Below are positions 10,988-25,006 of a stretch of 25,006 nt of DNA, piece by piece. The notes under the pieces are model-generated. The model worked only from the letters and a program-made list of their open reading frames with translations. It ran no database searches and was not told where the DNA came from. Source of the stretch: a virus; the IMG/VR virus record IMGVR_UViG_3300030012_002609, positions 1 through 25,006 of that record; one strand, given 5' to 3'. The position numbers were made by a program, and so were the translations under genes. Every line of letters begins with the position of its first letter. The first letter of the stretch is position 1.

Positions 10988-11423
10988 TCACATTGCAAAA
11001 TCGAAAGAACCCGTTTCCGCAGAAAGCGCATATGTAGAGGCAGATAAACGAGTTTTAGATCCCAGTCTTATTGAAAAGTCTTTGAAAGAACGCCTGCCTC
11101 AACCCACGGGCTGGCGTCTTCTTGTTATGCCATATCAAGGTAAGGCGAAGACTGACGGTGGGATTATCATACCGACTGAAGCTCGTGAACGAGAAGCGTT
11201 AGCCACCGTGGTAGCATATGTTCTGAAGCTAGGGCCTTTAGCGTATCAAGACCCCAACAAGTTTGGTGACAATCCAGAACCTTGGTGTAAAGAAGGTCAA
11301 TGGGTGTGTATTGGTCGGTACGCTGGATCAAGATTTAAGATTGAAGGTGGTGAAGTTCGCATCATCAATGATGATGAGGTGATTGCCACTATTCTTGAAC
11401 CAGATGACGTTAAGCATGTCTAA
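10962..11423 (+). CDS. GroES-like co-chaperonin
   Basis: Phage co-chaperonins (T4 gp31, RB49 CocO) cap GroEL so that the capsid protein can fold. Here an N-terminal extension of about 45 residues precedes a Cpn10-like barrel: LPQPTGWRLLVMPYQGKAKT, GGIIIPTEARERE (the mobile-loop region), ATVVAYVLKLGP, and GQWVCIGRYAGSRFKIEGGE with VRIINDDEVIATI at the end. At 153 residues it is longer than bacterial GroES (about 97). It lies directly before the scaffold and capsid genes. The start lies inside the previous gene with a weak ribosome-binding site. Confidence 0.8.
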   Translation: MAKTLYVPDHIAKSKEPVSAESAYVEADKRVLDPSLIEKSLKERLPQPTGWRLLVMPYQGKAKTDGGIIIPTEAREREALATVVAYVLKLGPLAYQDPNKFGDNPEPWCKEGQWVCIGRYAGSRFKIEGGEVRIINDDEVIATILEPDDVKHV

Positions 11424-17056: not shown

Positions 17057-17722
17057 ATGGCAACGTCTGGATCAAGAGATTTTACTCTTGATGTCTCTGA
17101 TATCATTGAAGAGGCATATGAGCGGTGTGGGCTTGAGGTTCGCACCGGATATGATGCACGCACCGCTCGTAGATCTATGAACCTGATGTTTGCAGATTGG
17201 GCAAACAGAGGGGTGAATTTGTGGACAGTGCGCCAAGCTACGACAACGCTCACTCAAGGACAATCTATCGAGACTCTTGGGCAAGATGTGGTTGATTTGT
17301 TGGAGGTTGTGATCAGGCGTGCCGGCACTGATTTTAACATCACTAAGGTGAGCCGAGGCGATTATTTATCTGTTCCAAACAAAACAACACAGGGTAGACC
17401 TTCTCAGTATTATTTTAACAGACAGATAACTCCGCAGATTACTTTATGGCCTACTCCTGAAAACAGTACTGATCAGCTTGTTTATTACTATGTTAGACGC
17501 ATAGAAGATGCAGACGCATCTGTAAATGATGTTGAACTTCCCTTTCGTTTCTTACCCTGTGCAGCGGCAGGGATGGCTTATTACATAGCTTTGAAGAAGT
17601 CTCCTGAAAGAGTTCAACTGTTAAAAACGGTGTATGAAGAAGAATTTCAGAGAGCCGCAGATGAGGACGAAGATAGAGTGTCTTTGAAGCTACAGCCTGA
17701 CATTCAATTCTTGAGGGTCTAA
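17057..17722 (+). CDS. Head-tail adaptor, P22 gp4-like tail accessory factor
   Basis: P22 gp4 binds the portal ring after packaging and forms the seat for the tail. The 221-residue product begins MATSGSRDFTLDVSDIIEEA, with YERCGLEVRTGYDARTARRS and NLMFADWANRGVNLWTV, which are recurring stretches of the gp4-like family in marine phages. The rest includes RGDYLSVPNKTTQGRPSQYY, TLWPTPENS, and a helical C-terminal part with PFRFLPCAAAGMAYYIALK and DEDRVSLKLQP. It starts the head-completion and tail block; ATG directly follows the previous stop. Confidence 0.8.
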   Translation: MATSGSRDFTLDVSDIIEEAYERCGLEVRTGYDARTARRSMNLMFADWANRGVNLWTVRQATTTLTQGQSIETLGQDVVDLLEVVIRRAGTDFNITKVSRGDYLSVPNKTTQGRPSQYYFNRQITPQITLWPTPENSTDQLVYYYVRRIEDADASVNDVELPFRFLPCAAAGMAYYIALKKSPERVQLLKTVYEEEFQRAADEDEDRVSLKLQPDIQFLRV

Positions 17723-18429
17723 TGGGCAACTATACATCAGGAAAAGATGCTTACGGAATTTCAGATCGTTCTGGATTTCGATATCGTTTACGCGATATGC
17801 GAACCGAGTGGAACGGAATGAAGGTGGGTCCTGATGAGTATGAATCCAAACATCCTCAATTAGAACCCAGGCGCAGAGTTATTGATCCTCAAGCGTTAAA
17901 AGATCCTAGACCGGAGAACAACAGCATTCCGGTCACAGCCAGCTTTCCTGCATTCAATTTAGAGTCTTTGACCTTTGAGTTGGTGCCTAAATTAACAGCT
18001 ACATTAGGAGAAGTAACGGTCAATGCGCCTACGACTGTTTCTGTTAATACTCCTGTGACAGGGTTTGCTGTTACCTCTTCTCTTGGCACGGCATCAACGA
18101 CTGGTACAACGATTACACAAACATTCACTGTAACTGTTGTAAGCACTGGTTATGGTAATAAGTATTACATAGATGGAGTACAACAGGCCACTGTTACACT
18201 GACTGAGGGTAACACTTATAGGTTTGATCAGTCTGATAGCAGTAATTCTGGACATCCTTTGCGCCTCTCAGCAACGTCAGATGGCACACACGGTGGAGGT
18301 TCACAATACACCACGGGTGTAACAACCACTTCTACTTACACTCAAATCACGGTTGCTGTAGGAGCACCGACACTGTACTACTATTGCACTAATCACAGCG
18401 GCATGGGCGGTCAGGCGAACACACCATGA
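17722..18429 (+). CDS. Virion protein with C-terminal cupredoxin-like domain (235 aa)
   Basis: Residues 1-65 are polar and aromatic (SGKDAYGISDRSGFRYRLRD; EWNGMKVGPDEYESKHPQL), a stretch shared with adaptor-linked virion proteins in marine phages. A Thr/Val-rich linker follows. From about residue 132 there is a beta-type domain: NKYYIDGVQQATVTLTEGNT, DQSDSSNSGHPLRLS, and LYYYCTNHSGMGG at the end. H178, C222, H225 and M228 in the pattern H ... C-x2-H-x2-M are the ligand set and spacing of type-1 copper proteins such as amicyanin. Whether copper is bound is unknown; the fold may be used for structure or adhesion. TAATG and ATGA overlaps couple it to both adaptor genes. Confidence 0.75.
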   Translation: MGNYTSGKDAYGISDRSGFRYRLRDMRTEWNGMKVGPDEYESKHPQLEPRRRVIDPQALKDPRPENNSIPVTASFPAFNLESLTFELVPKLTATLGEVTVNAPTTVSVNTPVTGFAVTSSLGTASTTGTTITQTFTVTVVSTGYGNKYYIDGVQQATVTLTEGNTYRFDQSDSSNSGHPLRLSATSDGTHGGGSQYTTGVTTTSTYTQITVAVGAPTLYYYCTNHSGMGGQANTP

Positions 18430-19070
18430 CATATACGTTAACGACACTTAAACAAGCTATTCAAGACTACACTGAGAATGACGAAACTACGTTCGTCAAC
18501 AACCTCAACAATTTTATTGAGAATGCAGAAGAGAAAATATTAAAATTAGTTGATCTTGATTATTTCCGTAAGAATGTTACGGCAACAATGACTTCTGGAA
18601 ATAAGTTCTTGCTGCAACCAACTGATTATCTTTCTTCTTTCTCTTTGTCGTTCACAAATACGGCAACATCTGAACAGGTCTTTCTTGATCAAAAAGATGT
18701 AAATTATATTCAAGACTATTGGCCTAATGCCTCAAGCACAGGAGTGCCTAGATATTATGCACCTTTTGACATAACTAGTTTTATTATAGCTCCTACTCCT
18801 AATCAAAATTACGCTTGTGAACTGCATTATTATTACAGACCAGCCTCGATAACTGGTGGCACAAACACTTGGCTTGGTGATAATGCTCCAGATTTACTGT
18901 TGTATGGGTCATTGGTTGAGGCTTACATCTTTATGAAAGAAGATGTTAATTCTTTGAATATATACAAACAACAGTTTCAAGAGGCTTTGTTGAGGCTTAA
19001 AAACTATGGAGAGGCTGTTGAGAATACGGATGCATACAGAACTGGTCTTGTGAGGATTGCAAAGACATGA
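18426..19070 (+). CDS. Head-tail adaptor, SU10-adaptor-like (214 aa)
   Basis: Starts MTYTLTTLKQAIQDYTENDE, then FVNNLNNFIENAEEKILKLV and DLDYFRKNVTATMTSGNKF, followed by YLSSFSLSFTN, a strand-rich middle, ELHYYYRPASIT and a C-terminal helix LYGSLVEAYIFMKEDVNSLN. This resembles phage SU10-type adaptor proteins, which sit below the portal in the neck. ATGA overlaps with the genes on both sides. Together with the gp4-like protein at 17057 it suggests a portal-adaptor neck of the podovirus kind. Confidence 0.75.
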   Translation: MTYTLTTLKQAIQDYTENDETTFVNNLNNFIENAEEKILKLVDLDYFRKNVTATMTSGNKFLLQPTDYLSSFSLSFTNTATSEQVFLDQKDVNYIQDYWPNASSTGVPRYYAPFDITSFIIAPTPNQNYACELHYYYRPASITGGTNTWLGDNAPDLLLYGSLVEAYIFMKEDVNSLNIYKQQFQEALLRLKNYGEAVENTDAYRTGLVRIAKT

Positions 19071-20544: not shown

Positions 20545-21099
20545 GTGTCTAACATAGGTGGATGGGGCAGAGGCGCTTGGGGTGAAGGTGCTTGGGGTCA
20601 ACCTGTACCTGTAGTTCTCACTGGAGTTTCTGCTACCACTGGTGTTGGGACGGTTCTCGCCGGAGGTGGCAGTGTTGTAGGACCTGTTGGTGCCGTTGGC
20701 ACCATAGGTTTTGGTGATGAACAAGTAACTACCACCGCTAATGTAGCTGTAACTGGTGTTACAGCGACCATTGCTACATCCACTCCTACGGCTCCAGCCG
20801 CAGTTATTTTAACAGGCGTTCCTGCCACCGCTTCTACGACAACACCAACAATCGTGGGTAACGCAATCTTTAGCGTTACTGGTAATTCTGCGTCTATCAC
20901 CGCAGGATCTCCGGTTGTGGACGATTTTGCTTTTGGTGTTACAGGATTGTCAGCAACCGGAAATGTTGGTATTGTCTTTATCTGGGGACAGGTAGTTCCA
21001 GATCAAACAGCCTCGTGGTCAGAGATTACTTCGGCTGAAAGTGATATTTGGACGGAAATAACACCAAGTCAAACTCCAGACTGGAAAGAGGTTGCATAG
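20545..21099 (+). CDS. Repeat-rich protein with WG motifs, probable tail/adhesin component (184 aa)
   Basis: Starts with GTG at 20545, preceded by ACGAGG. The N-terminus GGWGRGAWGEGAWGQP has three W-G units. The body consists of five imperfect repeats built on TG-x-(S/T/P)-A-(T/S): LTGVSATTG, VTGVTATIA, LTGVPATAS, VTGNSASIT and VTGLSATGN. The end has three W-x-E-I/V units (WSEIT, WTEIT, WKEVA). No membrane segment. The repeats suggest a filament or fibre; the WG start is shared with other tail proteins in this window. Confidence 0.65.
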   Translation: MSNIGGWGRGAWGEGAWGQPVPVVLTGVSATTGVGTVLAGGGSVVGPVGAVGTIGFGDEQVTTTANVAVTGVTATIATSTPTAPAAVILTGVPATASTTTPTIVGNAIFSVTGNSASITAGSPVVDDFAFGVTGLSATGNVGIVFIWGQVVPDQTASWSEITSAESDIWTEITPSQTPDWKEVA

Positions 21100-22613: not shown

Positions 22614-25006
22614 ATGTCAGGTCCTTTTGGCGCAAGTCCGTGGGGATACAGCCCAAGCACAGATTTCTATGACTACAGCATCAATCAGTCTTTGCGGCTA
22701 GATGACAGTTCTGGTGCAAAACTAACTATATCTTCTGCATCTCCAACAGCGACTAATAGAAAAAAGGTTACGATAAGTTGTTGGGTAAAACGTGCGGTTC
22801 TCGGTTCAGGGGTTTACACCATATTTCACGGAGGCAGTTCTGGATTAATGATGCAGTTCGGGCCGACTGGTGCCGATGAAATATACATATATCAATCCCC
22901 ATGGCAAATATATAAAGACGCTCTGTTAATACGAGATGCATCAGCGTGGTATCACTTCGCCTTAATTCTAGATAGTACGCAGTCAACTGACAGTGATAGG
23001 GCAAAATTTTACATAAATGGTCAGTTAGAAGATTTAAGCACTTGGCAGGTCGGCTCCGGTGCAGGACGCTATCCTGGACTAAACGTAGACTTTAATTGGC
23101 ATACAGGAACTACGCAGAGGATTGGTAGCACGGGTGGCACAGATGATTTAGCTGGGTACATAGCTGAGTTTATTTCTATTGATGGTCAGGATACCTCAAT
23201 ATCTGATTTCGGAGAGACGAAAAACGGAGTTTGGGTTCCAAAAGATGTGTCAGGTTTGACATTAGGTAATGCTGGCTTTCATCTTGATTTTGCAAATAGC
23301 GCAGACATTGGAAACGACATAGGCGCAAACAATATTGATTTTACTGCAACCAACCTATCCGCACACGATGTCGTGTCAGACAGCCCGACAAATAACTGGT
23401 GTACATTAAACTTTAATGACAGCCGCACATCACAAGGTTGGCAAGAGGGTGGATTAAAATGGCTTGCGTCATCAACTCAATACCAAGCTCATTCAACTAT
23501 GGTCATACCTGAAATATCAGATAGTGATATATACTATGCGGAGTGTCGGTGTAACTCTATTGGATATTCAAGGGGCATATCTCCAGTTACACTTTCTGGA
23601 GCAAACAATAGCACAGACATCACTGGTGTGCTTGTGTTGTATGATAACGGTAGACGATATAATGGAAGCACTCCGTTAGGAAGTGGCAACAATGAATATG
23701 CAACAATCTCTGCTGGCGACATATTTGGCATCAAAGCTGGTAATGGTGAATTAAGGTTTTTTCAAAATGGAACAGACCTTGGTGCGGCTTTTACAGGGCT
23801 GTCTGGGTCATACAAGTTTGTCAATTGGGCTGCTGGTGCGACTGGAACAGGCCAAACTTGGAACTTTGGTCAAGATAGCACGTTTCACGGACAAGAAACT
23901 GCTGGCACAACAACCGATAAAAATGGTCTTGGTTTGTTTAAATATTCTGATGCCTCTGGCTGTATTGCGCTTTGTGCGGCTAATATAGCAGAACCAGCCA
24001 TCGGCCCGAACAGCAATACACAAGCTGACGATAATTTTAACACGGTGCTGTATACTGGAAATGGCACAGGTCAAAGCATTACTGGTGTTGGTTTTCAACC
24101 AGACTGGGTTTGGTTAAAGACAAGGAGTGTGGGTTATCAGCATAGTCTTTATGACAGTGTTCGTGGGGGGCAATACCGTTTGGCCTCTGACCAAACTGCT
24201 GCTGAAGTAGACAATTCTTCTGCTAATTTACAGAGTTTTGATGTAGATGGCTTTACGGTCGGAACACTTATTAATGACAACCAAAACAGTGTAACATATG
24301 TTAGTTGGAACTGGAAAGCTGGTGGAACTGCATCAAGCAACACCGATGGCAGTATTACGTCACAGGTATCGGCTAATACTGACGCTGGGTTTAGCATAGT
24401 TTCTTATACGGGAAATTTTACGGGCAGCACAACTGTTGGTCACGGCCTATCAAAAAAGCCAGAACTTATATTTGTAAAAAATAGAGAGGTTGCAAGAAAT
24501 TGGCTTGTTTGGAATAAAGATGCAACCAGTGAAAAAGTTTTGTACTTAAACCTTACGAGTGGTGAAAACACTTCCGCTGCGGCTTTCGGCACACATACGA
24601 ACGAGGTTTTTGGTGTAGATGCAAGTGTGGAAACCAACGAAAACACAAAAGATATGATAGCCTACTGTTTCCACAGCGTTGAAGGCTACAGCAAGGTCGG
24701 GTCATATACGGGAAATGGCAGCTCAGATGGCACGTTTATTCACACAGGATTTAGGCCAGCTTGGATTTTATTTAAACGCTTGTCTGGTGGAAGTAATGGG
24801 TGGTTTTTGATGGACACCACAAGAGACACAGGAAATGTAATGAATACATTTTTAAGACCAAGTAGTGCCAATGATGAAGACACAGCGGCAAACTCAATAG
24901 CAGATTATTTGAGTAATGGTTTTAAATTAAGAGGCACAGGCGGTGATCTAAATACGAGTGGTCAAACCTACATCTACCTCTCCTTTGCCGAAGTCCCATT
25001 TAAATA
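22614..25006 (+). CDS. Large tail spike/fibre with lectin-like domain and DUF7483-like repeats, 3' truncated by window
   Basis: TAGGAGG lies 4 bases before ATG 22614. The frame is open to the window edge (797 codons), so the end lies outside. The N-terminus MSGPFGASPWGYSP is followed by a LamG/concanavalin-like lectin domain (about residues 25-200: VTISCWVKRAVLG, WYHFALILD, AKFYINGQLED, GTDDLAGYIAEF). A SPRY-like middle follows (NLSAHDVVSDSPTNNWCTLN; IFGIKAGNGELRFFQNGT). The C-terminal part has three repeats beginning YTGN at residues 480, 598 and 698, each with a G-F/L-x-P-x-W/L-I/V core and K-x-R (QPDWVWLKTR; KKPELIFVKNR; FRPAWILFKR). This last part resembles DUF7483 proteins (number from memory). 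It is a likely receptor-binding protein. Confidence 0.8.
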   Translation, partial: MSGPFGASPWGYSPSTDFYDYSINQSLRLDDSSGAKLTISSASPTATNRKKVTISCWVKRAVLGSGVYTIFHGGSSGLMMQFGPTGADEIYIYQSPWQIYKDALLIRDASAWYHFALILDSTQSTDSDRAKFYINGQLEDLSTWQVGSGAGRYPGLNVDFNWHTGTTQRIGSTGGTDDLAGYIAEFISIDGQDTSISDFGETKNGVWVPKDVSGLTLGNAGFHLDFANSADIGNDIGANNIDFTATNLSAHDVVSDSPTNNWCTLNFNDSRTSQGWQEGGLKWLASSTQYQAHSTMVIPEISDSDIYYAECRCNSIGYSRGISPVTLSGANNSTDITGVLVLYDNGRRYNGSTPLGSGNNEYATISAGDIFGIKAGNGELRFFQNGTDLGAAFTGLSGSYKFVNWAAGATGTGQTWNFGQDSTFHGQETAGTTTDKNGLGLFKYSDASGCIALCAANIAEPAIGPNSNTQADDNFNTVLYTGNGTGQSITGVGFQPDWVWLKTRSVGYQHSLYDSVRGGQYRLASDQTAAEVDNSSANLQSFDVDGFTVGTLINDNQNSVTYVSWNWKAGGTASSNTDGSITSQVSANTDAGFSIVSYTGNFTGSTTVGHGLSKKPELIFVKNREVARNWLVWNKDATSEKVLYLNLTSGENTSAAAFGTHTNEVFGVDASVETNENTKDMIAYCFHSVEGYSKVGSYTGNGSSDGTFIHTGFRPAWILFKRLSGGSNGWFLMDTTRDTGNVMNTFLRPSSANDEDTAANSIADYLSNGFKLRGTGGDLNTSGQTYIYLSFAEVPFK

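Follow-up and report, generated by a model that had tools for sequence, protein, structure and literature searches.

Introduction

Small blue-copper cupredoxins, such as amicyanin, plastocyanin, pseudoazurin and rusticyanin (PF00127), are free electron carriers. A cupredoxin is also encoded by cyanophages, in which the plastocyanin PetE is an auxiliary metabolic gene (PMC3037559). With reference to metals on phage particles, tail fibres with iron-binding HxH motifs have been described from T4 gp37 and alterophage R22Y (PMC11705849), while the cyanophage A-1(L), a myovirus, carries neck fibres from separate fibre genes (PMC10966104). No report of a cupredoxin domain or of copper in virion proteins was found in the openly accessible, published papers searched.

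In this study, the C-terminal domain of a putative neck protein was investigated in a window of 25,006 nucleotides, that is, the whole stretch of viral DNA analysed (IMG/VR record IMGVR_UViG_3300030012_002609). This domain shares with the small cupredoxins the fold and the ligand positions along the strands, and with amicyanin the very length of the C-x2-H-x2-M loop. However, it falls below the curated sequence cut-offs, harbors an extra conserved GTHGGG..Y loop and a His-Pro, and is found within structural proteins. Like PetE, it is a cupredoxin encoded by marine phages, but PetE is a separate metabolic protein, whereas the present domain belongs to putative virion proteins. It resembles the HxH tail fibres in that a metal, here predicted to be copper, would be carried on a marine phage virion with a possible role in attachment; in those fibres iron is held by pairs of histidines in a trimer, whereas the window encodes a copper-type site within a single domain, which occurs on the neck as well. 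The neck fibres of A-1(L) are likewise an accessory protein displayed at the virion neck, as we propose for this domain, though the accessible portion of that source reports neither a metal nor a cupredoxin domain for them. The domain is thus a member of the known cupredoxin superfamily, representing an uncatalogued and divergent family in an unusual setting.

Results

The neck gene lies on the plus strand at 17722-18429 and encodes a protein of 235 residues (translation read from 17722-18426), in which an N-terminal neck domain, a linker and a C-terminal cupredoxin-like domain follow one another; homologues of the same architecture were present in our alignment. The neck domain covers approximately residues 1-70 (17722-17931, plus strand) and matched phrog_28581 with an E-value of 7.9e-18. 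The linker (17932-18114, plus strand) is variable, poorly conserved and of low complexity, with low model confidence at residues 90-127. The cupredoxin-like domain comprises residues 132-235 (18115-18426, plus strand), residue 132 beginning at base 18115. On the side of the neck domain, a zinc-ribbon-like CxxC...CxxC was noticed in 16 of the 78 open reading frames matching it, with all four cysteines swapped in the window protein (SDRS...GPDE) and in most of its relatives.

The neck gene is situated between two SU10-type adaptor genes on the same strand, as in the neck cassette of SU10-like short-tailed phages. The upstream adaptor (17057-17722) matched PF24175 with an E-value of 1.5e-14, and the downstream paralogue (18426-19070) matched it at 1.4e-24, as well as phrog_2941, a virion structural protein family. 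Among 65 homologous loci, the upstream adaptor was present in 63 and the downstream one in 51. Judged by gene order, the host protein of the domain is encoded by the central gene in a conserved adaptor-neck-adaptor cassette, which supports its earlier reading as a neck or virion protein. Elsewhere, the window encodes an HlyC-like protein of the RTX toxin acyltransferase family (1095-1526; PF02794, E 3.1e-12), a GroES/Cpn10 co-chaperonin ahead of the head genes (11010-11423; PF00166, E 5.2e-10; phrog_3188), and a large virion protein with DUF7483 that runs off the window end (22614-25004; PF24299, E 2.4e-117).

Regarding the fold, the full-length protein was modelled poorly (pLDDT 65) because of the linker, and therefore the domain was modelled alone. 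With a 74-sequence alignment of residues 132-235 and 73 diverse homologues as input, AlphaFold2 returned a pLDDT of 97.2 and a pTM of 0.89. The model is a Greek-key beta-sandwich with cupredoxin topology, and the segment carrying the ligands is beta-rich, as had been read from the letters alone. Nearly all Foldseek matches at the top of the PDB list were copper proteins or cupredoxins; the 18 best were all multicopper oxidase (McoA), rusticyanin, copper nitrite reductase or amicyanin, and lower down, within the top 50, came plastocyanin and AcoP. The E-values were modest (best 3e-4) and the TM-scores to small cupredoxins moderate (about 0.46-0.60 by query length), values that would fit a divergent member of the superfamily. 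By a route that does not use the structure, hhalign against a profile of 29 PF00127 proteins gave a probability of 71, compared with at most 1.4 for nine controls (one reversed and eight column-shuffled). When the alignment was relaxed (-mact 0), H178, C222 and H225 were paired with true cupredoxin ligands, and M228 lay two residues nearer, as in amicyanin. The cupredoxin-like fold put forward in the earlier note is therefore supported by the domain model, the PDB matches and the profile comparison.

No cupredoxin model was matched in the Pfam and NCBIfam scan of the window domain, which did not reach the curated cut-off of PF00127 (Copper-bind); weak matches to that model were observed in 10 of the 74 domain members (best E 0.015), and some members other than the window domain weakly matched plastocyanin and rusticyanin models. 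As the domain lies outside all Pfam models, we regard it as an uncatalogued, divergent cupredoxin family. A PDB sequence search with the single protein found nothing. The PDB profile matches, mostly chance matches to antibodies with pseudoazurin 3tu6 at an E-value of 1.4, were rejected, and so were CBM_4_9 and other Pfam identities, whose matches were weak, sub-threshold and scattered.

The translation confirmed H178, C222, H225 and M228 within the last hundred or so residues, with the C-x2-H-x2-M spacing. The four putative copper ligands are all on the plus strand: H178 (18253-18255), in a His-Pro just ahead of a strand; C222 (18385-18387), which ends the next-to-last strand in the domain model; and H225 (18394-18396) and the putative axial ligand M228 (18403-18405), both in the loop preceding the last strand. 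This is the type-1 order of His...Cys-x(n)-His-x(n)-Met at cupredoxin strand positions. Shuffling the residues of the domain 20,000 times gave the pattern H-x(30-60)-C-x2-H-x2-M once, and C-x2-H-x2-M is unique in the 16,569 residues of the window's six-frame open reading frames of at least 60 residues; chance alone would not be expected to produce such an arrangement. The proline after H178 stands where small cupredoxins usually have asparagine, though in laccases proline does follow the type-1 histidine.

These four residues are conserved among the homologues, as the reading in the earlier note requires: all four are kept in 430 of 440 homologous domains. In the 74 aligned domains, histidine was found at position 178 in 73, C222 and H225 in all 74, and M228 in 72. 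Across 46 clusters at below 60% identity, H178, C222 and H225 were each kept in 44 and M228 in 45, the remaining cluster having glutamine, and the ligand columns ranked 2, 3, 5 and 6 of 90 in conservation. Some database scans had ligands in their search patterns, and one that required the cysteine and the histidine was excluded from the unbiased tally; among the hits for which no ligand had been demanded, all four were intact in 52 of 56 clusters. Such a conserved set argues for selection on the site itself.

Among the exceptions, changes confined to the axial position consisted of one glutamine and one leucine, which are known axial variants of type-1 sites. Zinc and other divalent ions can enter type-1 sites in vitro, so the site might instead hold such a metal, or several, purely for fold stability, and the predicted iron-binding HxH motifs on marine phage tail fibres (PMC11705849) also speak for it; we consider this improbable, as Cys-His-His-Met with a short loop is the copper set and the axial-only changes go to Gln and Leu. 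Other domains lacking the full set were two copies with a D/L double change (DCHL), one copy cut short, and a PSS2-type group (DATM, AATM or YAPM) that has lost C222 together with both histidines. In homologues of the PSS2 and DCHL types the site is therefore dispensable. Loss of C222 was always accompanied by loss of both histidines, an all-or-none pattern that is suggestive only, because one event may underlie all the C222 losses.

Phage virions often bear metal-free beta-sandwich decoration domains, and a cupredoxin fold could serve in the same manner as a display domain, with the four residues being a relic or a matter of packing; the persistence of the PSS2-type copies without ligands would agree with this. 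Ephrins are metal-free cupredoxin relatives whose ligands drift, whereas the ligand columns of the present family are among the most conserved at below 60% identity, and copies without C222 are also without both histidines. A metal-free display domain is thus rather unlikely, and the structural relic entertained in the earlier note is disfavoured.

Comparatively, hundreds of further marine phages were found to carry the domain, as were some microbes of the sea. In agreement with the earlier note, the end motif returns in structural proteins from other marine phages: the domain is present on pelagiphage tail fibres, S-TIM5 virion proteins, structural proteins of T4-like cyanophages and a PSS2 baseplate protein of short length. 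Many modelled copies of it are available in BFVD. From cells, proteins at nine Poseidoniales (Marine Group II) loci end in the domain with full ligands and, where read, are lipoprotein-like with collagen-like repeats. Lipoprotein-like proteins of SAR86, SAR92 and OM182 also end in the domain; in the SAR92 protein (L121:3227-4315) it follows a PEBP domain, and the OM182 protein has a cadherin domain alongside it. With signal peptides read by eye, the domain seems to be common to phages and apparent cell-surface proteins. Twelve loci from Pelagibacteraceae assemblies encode mostly proteins of about 580-700 residues with the domain near the C-terminus. They were rejected as host proteins: a T7 tail-fibre N-terminal domain is present in L089, the single one tested, and the others are of similar architecture, so that we regard the genes as phage genes that were assembled with the cell genomes. 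A weakly resolved tree did not divide phage copies cleanly from cell copies, and it is too short to order phages against cells.

C222 is usually the sole cysteine of the domain, with exactly one in 43 of the 46 clusters, and a single conserved cysteine would suit inter-subunit disulfide cross-links in the neck, the fold likeness then being incidental to function. This leaves the co-conservation of H178, H225 and M228 unexplained, and the same cysteine appears in unrelated architectures, including tail fibres and archaeal lipoprotein-like proteins, so that we find cross-linking very improbable.

The mobility of the domain was examined in a second survey of 80 loci, seeded by the neck N-terminal domain and thus independent of the cupredoxin. 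Both adaptor types were present at 72 of the 80, and 77 loci, whose neck gene was uncut by a contig end, could be scored. Among these, the cupredoxin domain resided on the neck gene in 33 and on another gene within 4 kb in 11; it was not seen in the other 33, of which 22 have incomplete flanks. Minimal neck genes encode about 106-134 residues, and the isolates DSL-LC04, HTVC023P, HTVC027P and CRP-902 have a neck gene without the domain. In phage 023Pt_psg01, the neck gene also lacks it, and the domain is found, with four ligands intact, at the N-terminus of an SU10-type adaptor (L239:2995-4092). In that phage at least, the fusion ties the domain physically to the adaptor ring, and it gives further support to the assignment as a neck or virion protein. 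On the evidence of these gene arrangements, the cupredoxin domain is an optional, exchangeable and mobile module. The window also encodes a GWGRGAWGEGAWG protein at 20545-21099; the same kind of start was noticed in a protein bearing the cupredoxin domain (L041:3439-4257), a further case in which the module sits on a different gene.

Electron transfer is the normal task of type-1 sites, and a redox-active protein, for example one shielding the virion from reactive oxygen, might be envisaged. Nevertheless, a redox partner was not seen in the window, and the domain is optional and fused to fibres as well as neck proteins; we give such a role hardly any credence.

Discussion

On balance, we slightly favour the explanation that the domain is a divergent cupredoxin with an intact type-1 ligand set, which acts as an exchangeable module of the head-tail joint, holds copper and probably assists attachment. 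Under this explanation, the N-terminal neck domain would dock onto the adaptor ring and the flexible linker would project the cupredoxin domain outward. A single copper ion may then enter the domain, most readily once the cell has lysed; the virion is assembled in a reducing cytoplasm, which makes uptake after lysis plausible. The ion would lock the C-terminal loop and the last strand of the exposed surface, and the displayed module would probably serve for attachment to the surface of a host or of a particle, rather than for joining head and tail or for electron transfer. Head-tail joining is unlikely to depend on an optional tail that resides on different genes in different phages. The fold, the identity and conservation of the ligands, the modular behaviour and the conserved cassette rest on the analyses above. 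Copper occupancy, exposure on the particle and the attachment role are, in this account, what we infer from the conserved site and its setting.

A broader reading is more doubtful, though it deserves mention: true type-1 copper may be present on many marine phage virions, namely those of pelagiphages, cyanophages and uncultured podoviruses, at the neck, fibre or baseplate, in a module also carried on surface proteins of marine archaea and bacteria and serving adsorption, in which case the particles would be carriers of copper in biologically bound form in the sea.

If copper is bound, blue-copper centres would be carried on the virions of abundant marine phages, and the idea of iron on phage tails would be extended to copper. 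Through these centres, phage particles could be probed spectroscopically, and a connection between the chemistry of trace metals and the adsorption of phages could be put to the test. Should no copper be bound, our data still provide a widespread, uncatalogued domain family that is common to phages and marine cells.
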